A stretch of DNA of 64,000 bases from Hanstruepera flava. Lineage in GTDB: Bacteria; Bacteroidota; Bacteroidia; Flavobacteriales; Flavobacteriaceae. Numbering within the stretch: the stretch's first letter is position 1; each line of letters opens with the position of its first letter. Both the position numbers and the translations under genes were made by a program. Positions 31,540 through 38,159 of the stretch are shown one piece after another. The stretch is from assembly GCF_023634025.1 (NCBI RefSeq), contig NZ_JALJCW010000001.1, forward strand, positions 719,501 to 783,500, given 5' to 3'. The notes under the pieces were generated by a model. The model did not search any database. It was not told the DNA's origin and saw only the letters and a list, made by a program, of their open reading frames with translations.

Positions 31540-32652
31540 ATGCCTATTCTTGATTTTGTTTTCTATGCATTTATTGCCATAGTTTGCATTCAGGTTATTT
31601 ATTACATCATATTTTTTACTCAATTTAAGGATTCATATTCGTTAGACACATCAATAGATTACCCACCCATATCTGTTATTATTTGCGCAAAAAATGAAGC
31701 CGAAAACTTAAAGGCTTTTTTGCCTTCTATAACAAATCAAAACTATCCTAATTTTCAAATTGTACTAATTAATGATGCTTCGTATGATGACACACTGGAA
31801 ATCATGGAAGAGTTTGCAATGCAAAATACTAACATTAAAGTTGTAAACGTAAAAAACAATGAAGCCTTTTGGGCCAACAAAAAATACGCATTAACCCTAG
31901 GTATAAAAGCTGCTAAATACAATCACCTGTTATTTACAGATGCAGATTGCAAGCCTATTTCAGAACATTGGATTACAGAAATGAGCTCTTATTTCAGCAA
32001 CAATAAGTCAATAGTTTTGGGGTATGGTGGCTATAAAAAAGTTAAAAAGTCGTTACTAAATAAGTTAATTCGTTTCGAAACCGTCCTTACGGCTATCCAA
32101 TATGTTTCCTATACCCATCTTGGCATACCTTATATGGGTGTAGGCCGAAATCTAGCTTATACTAAAGAAAAATTCTTCGAAGCAAATGGCTTTATGCAAC
32201 ACATGCATATTCGTTCTGGCGATGATGATTTGTTTGTCAATCAAGTTGCCAATTTAAAAAACACAGCCATATGCTTGAACCCAAACAGTTTTACAGAATC
32301 TGTACCAAAAAAAACTCTTGGTTCTTGGTTGGTGCAAAAAAAACGTCATATAACTACAGCTAGTCATTACAAATCCAAGCATAAAATTTTACTTGGTCTC
32401 TATTTTATATCTCAATTTTTGTTTTTCACTTTGGCTGTTTTGCTATTAATCTTTCAATTTCAGTGGAAATTAATTTTAGGACTAATAGCCTTTCGGCTTG
32501 TAATTCAAACCATTACTTATATTAAAGCAACCCGAAAGCTTAATGAACAAGATATCATTCCTTTTATTCCTTTTCTTGAGCTTTTTTTAATTGCCGTTCA
32601 ATTGTCTATATTTATATCCAATCTCATCTCTAAACCCAAACATTGGAAATAG
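31540..32652 (+). CDS. membrane glycosyltransferase family 2
   Basis: 370 residues. One N-terminal membrane helix (3-27), a GT-A domain (VIICAKNEAENL near residue 50, VLINDASYDDT, and the DxD-type FTDADCKP), the GDDDLFVNQV motif, the Q/R-rich KKRHITTASHYKSKH in place of QxxRW, and two or three C-terminal helices. This is the layout of processive or lipid-linked GT2 enzymes with the active site on the cytoplasmic side. Its last 10 bases overlap the next sigma factor gene, so the two are co-translated. Confidence 0.9.
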   Translation: MPILDFVFYAFIAIVCIQVIYYIIFFTQFKDSYSLDTSIDYPPISVIICAKNEAENLKAFLPSITNQNYPNFQIVLINDASYDDTLEIMEEFAMQNTNIKVVNVKNNEAFWANKKYALTLGIKAAKYNHLLFTDADCKPISEHWITEMSSYFSNNKSIVLGYGGYKKVKKSLLNKLIRFETVLTAIQYVSYTHLGIPYMGVGRNLAYTKEKFFEANGFMQHMHIRSGDDDLFVNQVANLKNTAICLNPNSFTESVPKKTLGSWLVQKKRHITTASHYKSKHKILLGLYFISQFLFFTLAVLLLIFQFQWKLILGLIAFRLVIQTITYIKATRKLNEQDIIPFIPFLELFLIAVQLSIFISNLISKPKHWK

Positions 32653-33191
32653 AAGAAGCTATAAAACAAGCCAAACTTAATAACCAAAAAGCCTTTAACT
32701 ATTTGGTTGAAACCTTCTGGGATGATGTTTATGGCTTTCAATTAAAACGCACAGGAAATGAAAACGATGCCGAGGACATAACCATACAAGCTTTCTCTAA
32801 AGCCTTTGATAAAATTGATACATACAACAGCGACTATAAATTCAAAACTTGGCTTATTACTATTTCAAAAAACATCCACATTGATTTAGTTAGAAAAGAA
32901 AAAAACACGTTTTCAAAAAAATTAAGCAGTACAGATGACGAAGATTATTTTGATGTTGTTGACGATTCTCCTTCTCCAGAAGACAAACTCATCACTGACC
33001 AAAACTTGGCCAAATTACTTCGTGACATAAAAAAACTGAAGCCTCACTACCAAGAAGTCATTAACTTAAGGTACTTCCAAGAATTAAGCTATAAAGAAAT
33101 TGCCGAGCAGCTAGAGGAACCTATAACTAATGTAAAAGTTAAGTTATTACGAGCAAAAAAGTTACTAGCTGAAATCATCCAAAAAAAATAA
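32643..33191 (+). CDS. ECF RNA polymerase sigma factor (TTG start)
   Basis: 182 residues. Region 2 (AEDITIQAFSKAF and FKTWLITISKNIHIDLVR) and region 4 (LSYKEIAEQLEEPITNVKVKLLRAKK) are complete. The start is TTG at 32643, inside the glycosyltransferase gene. No anti-sigma gene follows: the neighbours are glycosyltransferases on both sides, so control may be at the level of expression or by a partner elsewhere. Confidence 0.93.
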   Translation: MEIEEAIKQAKLNNQKAFNYLVETFWDDVYGFQLKRTGNENDAEDITIQAFSKAFDKIDTYNSDYKFKTWLITISKNIHIDLVRKEKNTFSKKLSSTDDEDYFDVVDDSPSPEDKLITDQNLAKLLRDIKKLKPHYQEVINLRYFQELSYKEIAEQLEEPITNVKVKLLRAKKLLAEIIQKK

Positions 33192-34001: not shown

Positions 34002-34880
34002 ATGAAAACAGAAGTAGATTCTAATATATTACCAGGTCGTGCCCCAAAACCTAAATGGTTACGAGTAAAACTACCAACTGGGAAAAAGTATACTGAATTA
34101 CGCAGTTTAGTAGACAAGTACAAACTGAATACCATTTGCACATCAGGAAGTTGCCCTAATATGGGAGAATGTTGGGGAGAAGGCACAGCCACATTTATGA
34201 TTTTAGGCAATATCTGTACACGATCTTGTGGATTTTGTGGTGTAAAAACAGGTAGGCCAGAAACAGTGGATTGGGACGAACCGGAAAAGGTTGCACGCTC
34301 TATAAAAATCATGAAAATCAAACATGCTGTACTAACTAGTGTTGATCGTGATGACTTAAAAGATATGGGAAGTATTATGTGGGCAGAAACCGTAAAAGCT
34401 GTTCGCAGAATGAACCCTGAAACTACACTTGAAACACTTATACCGGATTTTCAGGGTATAGAACGCCATATAGACAGAATTATAGATGTTGCCCCAGAAG
34501 TTGTTTCACACAATATTGAAACCGTTAGGCGCTTAACACGCGAAGTCCGCATTCAAGCTAAATACGACAGAAGTCTAGGTGTTTTAAACTATTTAAAACA
34601 ACAAGGTCAAAGACGAACCAAATCTGGAATTATGCTTGGGTTGGGTGAAACTCGAGAAGAAGTTATCGAAACCCTTCACGATCTTAAAGATAATGACGTA
34701 GATGTTGTAACCATTGGGCAATATCTTCAACCTAGCAAGAAACATTTACCAGTAAAACGCTTTATTATGCCAGATGAGTTTGAAGAGTACAAACAAATTG
34801 GTTTAGATTTAGGCTTCAGGCATGTAGAAAGTAGCGCTTTAGTAAGATCGTCTTATAAAGCACAAAAACACATTAATTAA
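34002..34880 (+). CDS. lipA: lipoyl synthase
   Basis: 292 residues. The auxiliary cluster Cys (C46, C51, C57 in [12 protein letters not shown]) and the radical-SAM Cys (C72, C76, C79 in CTRSCGFC) are present, as is the closing RSSY motif that completes the auxiliary cluster. The enzyme inserts two sulfurs into protein-bound octanoate, giving lipoyl groups for GcvH and 2-oxoacid dehydrogenases. Its stop overlaps the ATG of gap by one base (TAATG), so both are made from one message. Confidence 0.97.
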
Positions 34881-35896
34881 TGGTTCGCATTGGCATTAAT
34901 GGCTTTGGCCGAATAGGCAGACGCATATTTAGGCTGCTTGATAAAAATCCAGACATTCAAATTGTTGCAATTAATGATTTGGCAGATACCAAAACCTTGA
35001 GCCATTTATTAAAGTACGATAGTATTCATGGCATTTTTGAAGCTAATGTAGCTTACGATCAATCTCATATTATTGTTGACAAAAGATCAATTTCATTTTC
35101 ACATCACAATCATCCCAAAGACATTGACTGGAAAGATCACAATATTGATTTTGTTATTGAATGTACAGGAAAATTCAAAACAACCGAAACACTTCAGAAT
35201 CATATAAAAAATGGTGCTTCTAAAGTTATTTTAAGTGTTCCTCCTACTGACGATTCTATAAAAACTATTGTTTTAGGTATAAATGACGGCAGTATTGTAG
35301 GTGACGAACTTATACTATCAAATGCATCATGCACTACCAACAATGCGGCACCTATGATTGATATTATAAATAAACTTTGTGGTGTAAAACAAGCCTATAT
35401 TACTACGGTACATTCCTATACCACAGACCAAAGTTTACACGACCAACCACATCGGGATTTACGTCGTGCAAGAGCAGCTGGGCAATCCATTGTACCAACC
35501 ACAACAGGTGCGGCCAAAGCTCTAACAAAAATATTCCCAGATTTATCTGATGTTATAGGAGGATGCGGCATTCGCGTTCCTGTTGCCAATGGATCATTAA
35601 CCGATATTACTTTTAATGTTGAAAAGGCAACAACAATTGAAAACATTAATAATGCCTTTAAAGACGCATCTAAAGGATATTTAAAAAACATTCTCTCTTA
35701 TACAGAAGACCCGATAGTTTCAATTGATATAGTAGGCAACCCGCATTCTTGCATTTTCGATTCGCAAATGACTTCAGTTATTGGAAACATGGTAAAAATC
35801 ATCGGTTGGTACGATAATGAAACAGGTTACTCTCAAAGAATTATTGATTTAATTTGCAATTTATCGATAAAAATGTCACTTTTATCGAATAAATAA
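34880..35896 (+). CDS. gap: glyceraldehyde-3-phosphate dehydrogenase, type I
   Basis: 338 residues. The NAD loop INGFGRIGRR, Asp33 in INDLAD, the catalytic Cys151 in SNASCTTN and His178 in TVHSYT are intact, as is the DLRRARAA phosphate region and the WYDNETGYS closing motif. The segment after DLRRARAA (GQSIVPTTTGAAKAL) differs somewhat from the most common glycolytic form, so it may be a second paralog. The 3' end of the gene carries two of the three 21-bp-phased TCGA boxes that lie before the kinase gene. Confidence 0.95.
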   Translation: MVRIGINGFGRIGRRIFRLLDKNPDIQIVAINDLADTKTLSHLLKYDSIHGIFEANVAYDQSHIIVDKRSISFSHHNHPKDIDWKDHNIDFVIECTGKFKTTETLQNHIKNGASKVILSVPPTDDSIKTIVLGINDGSIVGDELILSNASCTTNNAAPMIDIINKLCGVKQAYITTVHSYTTDQSLHDQPHRDLRRARAAGQSIVPTTTGAAKALTKIFPDLSDVIGGCGIRVPVANGSLTDITFNVEKATTIENINNAFKDASKGYLKNILSYTEDPIVSIDIVGNPHSCIFDSQMTSVIGNMVKIIGWYDNETGYSQRIIDLICNLSIKMSLLSNK

Positions 35897-35912
35897 TTAT
35901 ATTTGTCGATAA
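35861..35912. promoter_or_regulatory. three 21-bp-phased TCGA-centred operator boxes
   Basis: TTATCGATAA (35861-35870, perfect palindrome), TTATCGAATA (35882-35891) and TTGTCGATAA (35903-35912) are centred at 35865.5, 35886.5 and 35907.5, exactly two helical turns apart. The third overlaps the -7 box. They look like a cooperative binding site for a regulator of the kinase gene. Confidence 0.6.
35898..35905 (+). promoter_or_regulatory. putative -7 box of hybrid kinase gene
   Basis: TATATTTG fits TAnnTTTG, 23 bases before the ATG, and overlaps the third TCGA box. Confidence 0.55.
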
Positions 35913-35927
35913 TAGTGAAGAATAAAA

Positions 35928-38159
35928 ATGTCCCAGATTCATAAATATATATGTGCTATTATATTTTTGATTAGCTACTCTGTGTCTGCACAAACCGATA
36001 TTAGTGAAGACGAAGAGACTATTCAAATCAACATTGATTATCGTATTAATCAAGCACAGAATGACATTGAAAACTACGATTATTTCGAAGCTCAAAAAAA
36101 GCTTGAAGATGCTTTAGTGCTTGCCGAAAAAATTGGCAATAAACAAAGTATTGGTCTTATCTATTCAAAAATTGGAAAACTTCAATATATCATTGAAGAG
36201 CCCGATGAAGCACTGGTATATTTATTTAAGGCAAACGAAATACAACGTATAGCTAAAGATGATGTTAATAGAGCTGAAACCTATAAAATTCTTGGAAACG
36301 TTTACAACAGTAAAAAGGATTATCAACAAGCTTTAGATTATTACACCTCATCTAAAACACTTTTTGAACAAGAGGGCCTAAACGACTTTGTCGCTGAAAT
36401 TTTACTCAACGAGGGTAAAACCTTAATTCTATTAGAAAACTATAAAAAGGCAAATCAACAATTAGATAAGTCTATCTCATTGGCTACGAGATACGATTTA
36501 AACAAAATATTGAGCAGTGCCATGATTCATAATGGATTAGCTTTAGCCAAATTAGGCAATATTGATAGCGGTTTAAAAATTGCCAACGACGGTATTACTA
36601 TAGCAAAAGACAATGCTTTCAATACGGTTTTAAGCAATGGTTATTTAATTTTAAGTGACTTAAATCAACTTGCAGAAAATTACAAACTAGCTAACGATTA
36701 TTTAAAAAAACATATCAGTCTTTCTGATTCTTTATTAACGGTTAAACGTGAGAATTTATCACCCGAAAAGCGCATTCAAGTATTATTAGACAATCAAACA
36801 GAGTTCCAAAAAGAACAAGCCGCTAATCTTGAAGAAGAAATTGAAGCCAATAGCCTTAATAAGTTAACAACCATTTTAAGTATTGCCTTAATTACCATTT
36901 TATCTTTACTAACATTGTCGCTTTACAAAAACAATAACATTAGGCTTAAAACCAATAATATGCTTCATAAGAAAAATGGAGAACTTATTATAGCCAAGGA
37001 AAAAGCCGAATTAGCTTCAAAAACAAAGGCCAACTTTTTATCTACTGTAACCCATGAGTTACGAACACCCTTATATGCCGTTACAGGACTTACAAATATG
37101 CTTTTGGATGAAGATCCTAAACCACATCAGGTACAACATTTAAAATCCTTAAAATTTTCTGGCGATTATCTACTTACGTTTATAAATGACATTCTACAAA
37201 TCAATAAAATTGAAGCCAATAAAGTAGATGTTGAACCAGAGGTGTTTAATTTAAAGAAAAAAGTCACTAATGTTATAGCCGCTTTAAACAATTCTGCATT
37301 AGACAATAACATTCAAATACATTTTGAATTTGATAAAGACCTACCGGAAAACTATCATGCAGACCAGCTTAAAATTTCGCAAATTTTAATAAACCTTATT
37401 GGCAACTCCATTAAGTTTACAAAAGATGGTGATATTTGGGTAAGAGTATACAAGCTACAACAAGATAACGATATTTATAATGTTCGTTTTGAAATTGAAG
37501 ATAATGGCATAGGTATTAGCAAAGAAAAACAAGAAATGCTATTCGAAAGCTTTGCTCAAGGTTCTATTCAAATTAACCGTAAATATGGTGGAACAGGTTT
37601 AGGGCTTTCTATTGTTAAAGGTTTAATTGAAATACTAAAAGGCAAAATATATCTTAAAAGTGAATTGGGCAAAGGCTCTACTTTTACTTTCGAGTTACCA
37701 CTTAAGTATTCTGAATCTGCCGCAGAAAAGCCTAAAAAGGTGGAATACTTCAAAAACGTTGATGAATTGGATTTAAAAAACATCAAGATTTTAGTTGTTG
37801 AAGACAACAAGATTAATCAAATGATTACAAAGAAGATTCTGAATAAAATGGGTCTTCAATGTGATATTGTTGATAATGGTGAAGCTGCCGTAGATAACGC
37901 TAAAACTATTCAGTATGATGTTATACTAATGGATATCCATATGCCAGGAATAAGTGGATTGGAAGCCACTAAAATTATCAGAACATTCAATAAGGACATA
38001 ACTATTTTTGCATTAACAGCCGTAACTCTTGAAGATAAAATGCACGAGTTTGACGAAGCTGGATTTACCGATATTATTTCAAAACCGTTTAAACAAGAAG
38101 ACTTCGAAAAGAAATTATACAATGCCTTAATAGGCGACAAAAAGAAGTCAACTGCTTAA
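35928..38159 (+). CDS. hybrid histidine kinase with periplasmic TPR sensor and receiver domain
   Basis: 743 residues. Signal peptide 1-21, five or six TPR-like helical repeats at about 40-270 in the periplasm, one membrane segment at 313-335 and a short coiled coil. HisKA has its H-box His376 in STVTHELRTP. The HATPase domain shows the N box (QILINLIGNSIKFT), DNGIGIS and GTGLGLSI. A receiver domain near 620-740 has phospho-acceptor Asp669 in LMDIHMPG. There is no DNA-binding output, so the signal must pass to a phosphotransfer partner elsewhere. It follows lipA-gap and converges with lpxK, overlapping its end by 4 bases. Confidence 0.95.
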   Translation: MSQIHKYICAIIFLISYSVSAQTDISEDEETIQINIDYRINQAQNDIENYDYFEAQKKLEDALVLAEKIGNKQSIGLIYSKIGKLQYIIEEPDEALVYLFKANEIQRIAKDDVNRAETYKILGNVYNSKKDYQQALDYYTSSKTLFEQEGLNDFVAEILLNEGKTLILLENYKKANQQLDKSISLATRYDLNKILSSAMIHNGLALAKLGNIDSGLKIANDGITIAKDNAFNTVLSNGYLILSDLNQLAENYKLANDYLKKHISLSDSLLTVKRENLSPEKRIQVLLDNQTEFQKEQAANLEEEIEANSLNKLTTILSIALITILSLLTLSLYKNNNIRLKTNNMLHKKNGELIIAKEKAELASKTKANFLSTVTHELRTPLYAVTGLTNMLLDEDPKPHQVQHLKSLKFSGDYLLTFINDILQINKIEANKVDVEPEVFNLKKKVTNVIAALNNSALDNNIQIHFEFDKDLPENYHADQLKISQILINLIGNSIKFTKDGDIWVRVYKLQQDNDIYNVRFEIEDNGIGISKEKQEMLFESFAQGSIQINRKYGGTGLGLSIVKGLIEILKGKIYLKSELGKGSTFTFELPLKYSESAAEKPKKVEYFKNVDELDLKNIKILVVEDNKINQMITKKILNKMGLQCDIVDNGEAAVDNAKTIQYDVILMDIHMPGISGLEATKIIRTFNKDITIFALTAVTLEDKMHEFDEAGFTDIISKPFKQEDFEKKLYNALIGDKKKSTA

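Follow-up and report, generated by a model that had tools for sequence, protein, structure and literature searches.

The promoter of a hybrid histidine kinase gene in a 64,000-nucleotide stretch of Hanstruepera flava DNA (the window) carries two near-palindromic TTTATCGATAAA boxes centred two helical turns apart, and the same pair is found upstream of genes for T9SS and surface proteins. Very probably the two boxes form one operator which, in phase with the -7 box, would set the transcription of a regulon. Within it would fall the hybrid kinase gene of the window and a gene for a SixA-like phosphohistidine phosphatase, along with gldK, an ECF sigma gene, genes for surface proteins exported by the T9SS, and the operon of the regulator itself. 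The likeliest binder would be RR-A, an RcsB/LiaR-like response regulator of the NarL/FixJ type whose gene follows those of a small peptide and a TPR sensor kinase. That boxes 1 and 2 are the operator of a surface and secretion regulon bound by RR-A is a reading we hold tentatively, at slightly short of an even chance. Two dimers of one regulator would sit side by side, presumably cooperatively, on the operator, which may itself lie inside an extended site whose sequence approaches the dyad TGYATTTYATCGATAAA-N8-TTTATCGATRAAATGCA. Activation would be expected at most promoters, with possible repression at the kinase gene, where box 2 adjoins the -7 box. A defined site, named targets and a candidate regulator make the control of T9SS and gliding genes outside Porphyromonas testable, and a hybrid kinase that lacks an output domain is tied to a regulon.

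Paired boxes at the gap-kinase junction

The preliminary description of this DNA had claimed three TCGA-centred boxes, exactly 21 bp apart, over the kinase promoter, two within the final codons of gap and a third overlapping the -7 box, and each of these positions was reproduced from the window sequence. Box 1 has the core TTATCGATAA (35861-35870, centre 35865.5) and reads TGCAATTTATCGATAAAA with its 5' TGCA flank (35855..35872, + strand). Box 2 follows 21 bp further on, with the core TTATCGAATA (35882-35891, centre 35886.5) inside TTTATCGAATAAA (35881..35893, +). Box 3, with the core TTGTCGATAA (35903-35912, centre 35907.5) inside TTTGTCGATAATA (35902..35914, +), overlaps the -7 element of the kinase promoter, TATATTTG (35898..35905, +). 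The gene upstream, gap (glyceraldehyde-3-phosphate dehydrogenase; 34880..35896, +), was identified by eye and from the name given in the preliminary description; its TAA stop occupies 35894-35896, and its last codons hold boxes 1 and 2. The kinase gene (35928..38159, +) encodes TPR, HisKA, HATPase_c and receiver domains according to Pfam, together with a signal peptide and a transmembrane segment read by eye, and its product is 97% identical to the H. marina counterpart. Pfam found no output domain and no DNA-binding domain in the kinase, in keeping with the earlier remark that it has no DNA-binding output. Upstream of the lipA-gap-kinase cluster, at a distance of a few genes, is another ECF sigma gene (32643-33191), distinct from the box-controlled one discussed below.

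Single boxes are unremarkable and only mildly over-represented in the window: nine occur with at most one mismatch, against a shuffle mean of 4.5, and nine were reached in 3 of 100 shuffles. The pair is a different matter, as the only mismatch-free occurrence of the paired pattern (21 bp) in the 3.09-Mb genome is this junction, in the form of two overlapping pairs.

Kinase relatives with 3 kb of upstream DNA were collected (the best 80 of 204) and, with the window, gave 81 promoters. An ungapped alignment of these, running from box 1 through the -7 box, gives the consensus CAATTTRTCGRWAAAAANNNNNCTTTTRTCGAWWAAATAATTATATTTG. Both boxes 1 and 2 keep a CG core at 21 bp in 80 of the 81 promoters, from many genera, and the full TCG is present in both in 70. 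Taken singly, box 1 has TCG in 71/81 and NCG in 80/81, with CCG, GCG or ACG in nine rows, while box 2 has TCG in 79/81 and NCG in 80/81, the variant being ACG in L059; one promoter (L072) has lost both. The -7 element is near invariant, and TATATTTG, which fits the flavobacterial -7 consensus TAnnTTTG, is present in nearly all 81. Box 3 has TCG in only 22/81 and the full box TTGTCGRNWA in 14/81, and appears to be a lineage-specific element that is mostly lost among these promoters. In three genomes (G063, G012 and G052), the pair consists of boxes 2 and 3, one step nearer the transcription start. A helically phased and probably cooperative regulator site, as first proposed, has good support where boxes 1 and 2 are concerned; its three-box form is weakened by the scarcity of box 3. 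Among kinase orthologues (at least 57% identity), a box pair was scored in 23 of 23 genomes, the window's included, with scores of 19.6-44 compared to shuffle maxima no higher than 9.2.

At 74 of the 81 loci, boxes 1 and 2 fall within the 3' end of gap or immediately after it, and their conservation might therefore reflect gap codon constraint or a gap terminator in place of an operator, a reading that we consider extremely improbable. In the other seven loci no gap gene lies upstream and the boxes are kept nonetheless, and in 32 of the 74 the gap stop precedes the TCG of box 2, which is also kept. The preliminary description had held that boxes varying freely in sister species, or synonymous positions no more conserved than those in the rest of gap, would speak against a regulatory site. 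The two boxes do not vary freely, as the CG counts indicate, and where box 1 codes for serine, the codon is TCG 64 times out of 65, compared to 117 of 1748 serine codons (6.7%) in the rest of gap, with a P value for this test that is nominal since the rows share descent. The gap-less loci, this TCG bias and the occurrence of the same box pair at unrelated promoters refute constraint by gap.

The paired site at other promoters

A paired pattern was scanned in 60 family genomes (at most two mismatches) and in five genus genomes (at most three), and 45 of the sites found in this way were used to build a profile model, R1, and a box matrix. The core of R1 and the matrix agrees with the search pattern by construction, while the flank and the spacing test are independent of it. 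The first 40 context loci were hand-picked from rows of the 60-genome scan and further loci were taken from later scans; matches in coding sequence (such as L273, L282, L393 and L407) were set aside as chance. At three mismatches, two of the five genus genomes were at or near control (14 vs 10 in G000, 13 vs 14 in G001) and the other three had 16 matches against controls of 4, 8 and 6; matches at this threshold were used only for sites found in more than one genome.

Spacing was assessed by an exact box scan of the 60 family genomes with free spacing from 10 to 40 bp (31 spacings), in which kinase rows were labelled by hand. Among the 72 non-kinase pairs, 24 are spaced by 20 or 21 bp, compared to about 1.7 at each other spacing (binomial P = 1e-11). 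The outer flank of 47 non-kinase sites is TGYAT-like (T 27, G 23, C/T 35, A 22, T 33), and such flanks would extend the site to a 42-bp dyad, TGYATTTYATCGATAAA-N8-TTTATCGATRAAATGCA.

The genes behind these sites are diverse. SixA-like phosphatase promoters carry the boxes at several loci (e.g. L155, L158, L174, L177, L236, L397, L399, L404 and L405); the product matches PF00300 (30.8 bits, cut-off 21.7) and reaches 31.0 bits against a curated cut-off of 74.5 for TIGR00249, and it is therefore named SixA-like only. Boxes precede gldK in the three genomes in which the gene was read (G000, G003 and G002; L172, L233 and L237), with similar 34-mers in all five genus genomes, and the product is the T9SS core component GldK (TIGR03525, 591 bits against a cut-off of 350). 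Of the long secreted targets, eight were selected once their C-terminal ends had been inspected, and in NCBIfam all eight carry T9SS sorting domains above cut-off, seven of type A and one of type B (TIGR04183/TIGR04131); shorter secreted products, such as a 146-aa protein in L305 and the hydrolases, lie outside this set. The putative regulon includes a T9SS component and T9SS cargo alongside targets that are not T9SS genes. Further boxed promoters belong to a transmembrane protein whose gene follows ligA, to a secreted alpha/beta hydrolase and other secreted proteins, and to a small zinc-ribbon-like protein. In G000 and G003, an additional TPR kinase gene has a single, weaker box upstream. Among the most widely kept box targets is an 82-97-aa CxxC protein (L276, L283, L153, L161, L391 and L392), whose gene adjoins that of the alpha/beta hydrolase in four loci; one member was searched against NCBIfam and received no name.

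The ECF sigma gene preceded by boxes has a match in 54 of the 60 family genomes. A scored pair 19-23 bp apart lies upstream in 15 of the 30 loci read, against none at the 95th percentile of shuffles, and three of these pairs are in genomes without RR-A (G035, G043 and G058). More pairs were recognized by eye, as in the window's own genome (L412), while none was seen by eye in G055, G052, G057, G015 or G018. Below the boxes of these promoters (L410-L438) is a conserved TTAAACTTT...GTCTAA with the look of an ECF-type promoter, which suggests that the sigma factor may also drive its own gene.

The distance from a -7-like TAnnTTWR element to the centre of box 2 is 11.5 bp in 79 of the 81 kinase promoters. 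Measured to the scored box 2, it is 20.5 bp at three of four transmembrane-gene loci, 21.5 bp at one S8 protease gene (L183) and 52.5-53.5 bp at all three gldK loci (TATGTTTA); no -7-like element was found at a second S8 protease promoter (L187). For the RR-A operon the distance is 31.5-32.5 bp in 10 of 21 loci, 51.5-54.5 bp in six loci with only one box scored, and 22.5 and 60.5 bp in one locus each, with no -7 element found in the remaining three. The -7 pattern is loose, and occasional chance matches are expected in DNA this rich in AT. From one promoter type to the next, the main distances are about one helical turn, or several whole turns, apart, as for a protein that has to face RNA polymerase.

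The candidate regulator RR-A and other possible binders

RR-A is encoded last in an operon that begins with a secreted peptide some 45-80 aa long (found in the ORF list or, at some loci, by eye), followed by a TPR kinase whose TPR and HisKA_3 matches fall near cut-offs and then by the 222-224-aa response regulator itself, which in the window's genome lies at C1:990124-990795. Orthologues with at least 63% identity are present in 20 of the 60 family genomes, with a fragment in one more (G019). The receiver domain matches PF00072 with 36.8 bits in one protein (P0004; cut-off 30.2) and 29.4 bits, just below the cut-off, in another (P0003), and it carries a phospho-acceptor aspartate, D65, that is invariant in the alignments. 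The AlphaFold model of RR-A has a pLDDT of 91, and its best solved matches in Foldseek are RcsB, LiaR and RcsB-DNA complexes, over approximately the whole length (E about 1e-11 to 1e-10). From this model, RR-A is predicted to end in a LuxR/GerE-type C-terminal helix-turn-helix, with the recognition helix SAIEKRKKQLK; Pfam gave no GerE match in RR-A, and only a weak AsnC-type helix-turn-helix below cut-off.

Promoters of the RR-A operon were read at 21 loci, one of them in G004 and the others in the 20 family genomes. The box score reached at least 13 in 18 of the 21, compared to 3% of 420 shuffles. Two loci fall below this value (L354, 10.3; L350, 8.3), and in L349 a pair scoring 19.5 lies farther upstream. 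At a low threshold, and distant boxes apart, neighbouring boxes are 21 bp apart nine times, 20 bp twice, and 8, 19, 23 and 42 bp once each. The leader of the operon (A4; e.g. L340:3021-3248 (-) and L291:3597-3824 (-)) also contains two conserved elements separated by about 80 nt, one being TTAATCCATT followed further on by TTCCCTC and the other TTAATNATCCATTNTTCCCTC, beside variable hairpin-like stretches; an Rfam search of five RR-A loci returned no match.

Boxes and regulator occur together. RR-A is present in 21 of the 23 genomes with kinase box pairs; the other two, G052 and G055, are incomplete bins (82% and 88% complete) that have the kinase boxes and in which RR-A was not found. Paired-motif matches number 80 against a control of 16 in the 21 RR-A genomes (one with a fragment), and 20 against 37 in the other 39; with kinase rows removed, the ratios are 50:16 and 18:37 (Fisher P = 3e-6), in a comparison whose counts are not independent because near-palindromic sites count on both strands and the clade shares descent. 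The excess over control is confined to genomes with RR-A. This co-occurrence, and the boxes at its own operon, make RR-A the most likely protein to bind the TTTATCGATAAA boxes.

The operator and regulon could be as proposed and the binder another family-wide DNA-binding protein, with RR-A merely one of its targets, and we regard this as a serious possibility, at a little less than an even chance. In its favour, genomes without RR-A retain some sites: pairs precede the ECF sigma gene in G035, G043 and G058, and a zinc-ribbon-like gene in G016 and G035. Outside the RR-A clade, 11 of 44 non-kinase pairs are spaced by 20 or 21 bp (P = 8e-5). A lower-identity kinase match is present in 20 family genomes, of which seven, with 41-46% identity and no RR-A in the genome, were read. 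All seven keep the -7 box with pair scores of at most 1.8; leaving aside the two incomplete bins, the lack of any matrix-scored pair in RR-A-less kinase homologues speaks against another binder, as does the confinement of the paired-motif excess to RR-A genomes. Three of the seven promoters (L384, L385 and L386, from G043, G016 and G058) nevertheless have two TCGs 21 bp apart in the register of boxes 2 and 3, with a flank that the matrix leaves unscored, and the kinase site may therefore predate RR-A. In these three, TATCGAGGAAAT..ATATTTATCG-like pairs lie over the -7 box, perhaps as an older form of the site.

In place of RR-A, the genomes that keep such pairs without it have only RR-A homologues at 38-47% identity whose recognition helix is similar (SIAGIEKRKR), or RR-B (e.g. 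SAIEKRLKELK), a regulator more distantly related. Exact pairs spaced by 20 or 21 bp were found in 21 of 42 genomes with RR-A, a homologue or RR-B, compared to 1 of 18 with none of these, while pairs at other spacings were found in 22 of 42 and 7 of 18. Operons of these relatives are box-free in nearly all loci read, which favours another binder: no boxes were found at three operons of RR-A homologues (45-47% identity; L357-L359), and of 20 RR-B operon loci, 18 had no box scoring higher than the shuffles' 95th percentile, with single boxes just above the shuffles in L500 and L502 (at L484 and L486 a wrong ORF had been taken for the kinase). No autoregulation of RR-B was found at these loci. RR-A as the sole binder family-wide is weakened by the 20/21-bp pairs and the outgroup kinase TCG pairs in genomes without it. 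Two readings follow, a site common to the members of this regulator subfamily or a different binding protein.

In both subfamilies (L290-L293 and L340-L356 for RR-A; L488, L489, L492, L495, L496 and L500 for RR-B), genes for a TPR kinase and a NarL-type regulator are directly preceded by one for a small secreted peptide or lipoprotein, and a peptide-kinase-regulator module is possible. Many of the peptides end in TGG..D or SNG, or carry QACCG[DE] and poly-Pro, and the one before the TPR kinase in L347 carries a tandem array of almost identical repeats around TEATTFTGGGVDERD, resembling the precursor of a signal made in several copies. A broader proposal, which we consider doubtful, is that a three-part surface-sensing module in Flavobacteriaceae (secreted peptide or lipoprotein, periplasmic-TPR kinase and RcsB-like regulator) reads its own peptide and, through cooperative boxes phased at 21 bp, couples T9SS secretion, surface proteins, the hybrid kinase and the phosphohistidine phosphatase; it would be autoregulated and perhaps a peptide quorum system.

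Comparison with known systems

Regulators of the LytTR and AraC families bind tandem sites with repeats of about 21 bp, whose half-sites are not known to be 12-bp palindromes. The two-turn centre spacing beside a promoter is similar here, yet no such protein is linked to the present boxes. An OmpR-type regulator such as PhoP (PhoPR) of Riemerella anatipestifer, acting on a direct repeat, would fit the tandem spacing near two turns and the regulation of membrane proteins, and PhoP is likewise a global regulator in a flavobacterium with sites upstream of membrane genes. We consider it very unlikely as the binder: the present boxes are near-palindromic, and the PhoP DAP-seq motif has the core TTTAACA in the accessible text of PMC9603813, unlike TTTATCGATAAA.

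PorX/PorY-SigP of Porphyromonas gingivalis controls T9SS genes, and PorX footprints have been reported on sigP and porT, according to the accessible parts of PMC8265659 and PMC8050853. The targets found here likewise include gldK/PorK and T9SS cargo as well as an ECF sigma gene, and the site might belong to that pathway and be bound by PorX. This is improbable, as three reported footprints score no higher than their shuffles with the box matrix and do not match the boxes. PorX binding to DNA is itself disputed, and the accessible text of PMC10951265 describes PorX as lacking a canonical DNA-binding motif.

In the literature searched, no operator or dedicated transcription factor was found for T9SS or surface-protein genes of Flavobacteriaceae. 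Searches with the box strings gave no paper on a bacterial regulator among the matches listed, and none of the matches listed for flavobacterial SixA, SigP/PorX, T9SS palindromes, TPR/LuxR regulators, TPR kinases with peptide pheromones or the regulation of gldK described the site. Within these searches, the earlier statement of knowing no named flavobacterial regulator with this site stands.

The Rcs phosphorelay offers further likenesses to the proposed operator with RR-A as its candidate binder. The RcsB/NarL-FixJ family uses palindromic AT-rich sites, as here, the fold of RR-A is nearest RcsB and LiaR, and both a hybrid kinase and a SixA-like phosphatase belong to the putative regulon. Unlike Rcs, the RR-A operon has a TPR, HisKA_3-like kinase of its own, and RR-A differs from this family in its lack of a Pfam GerE match, in its recognition helix and in having T9SS genes as its putative targets.
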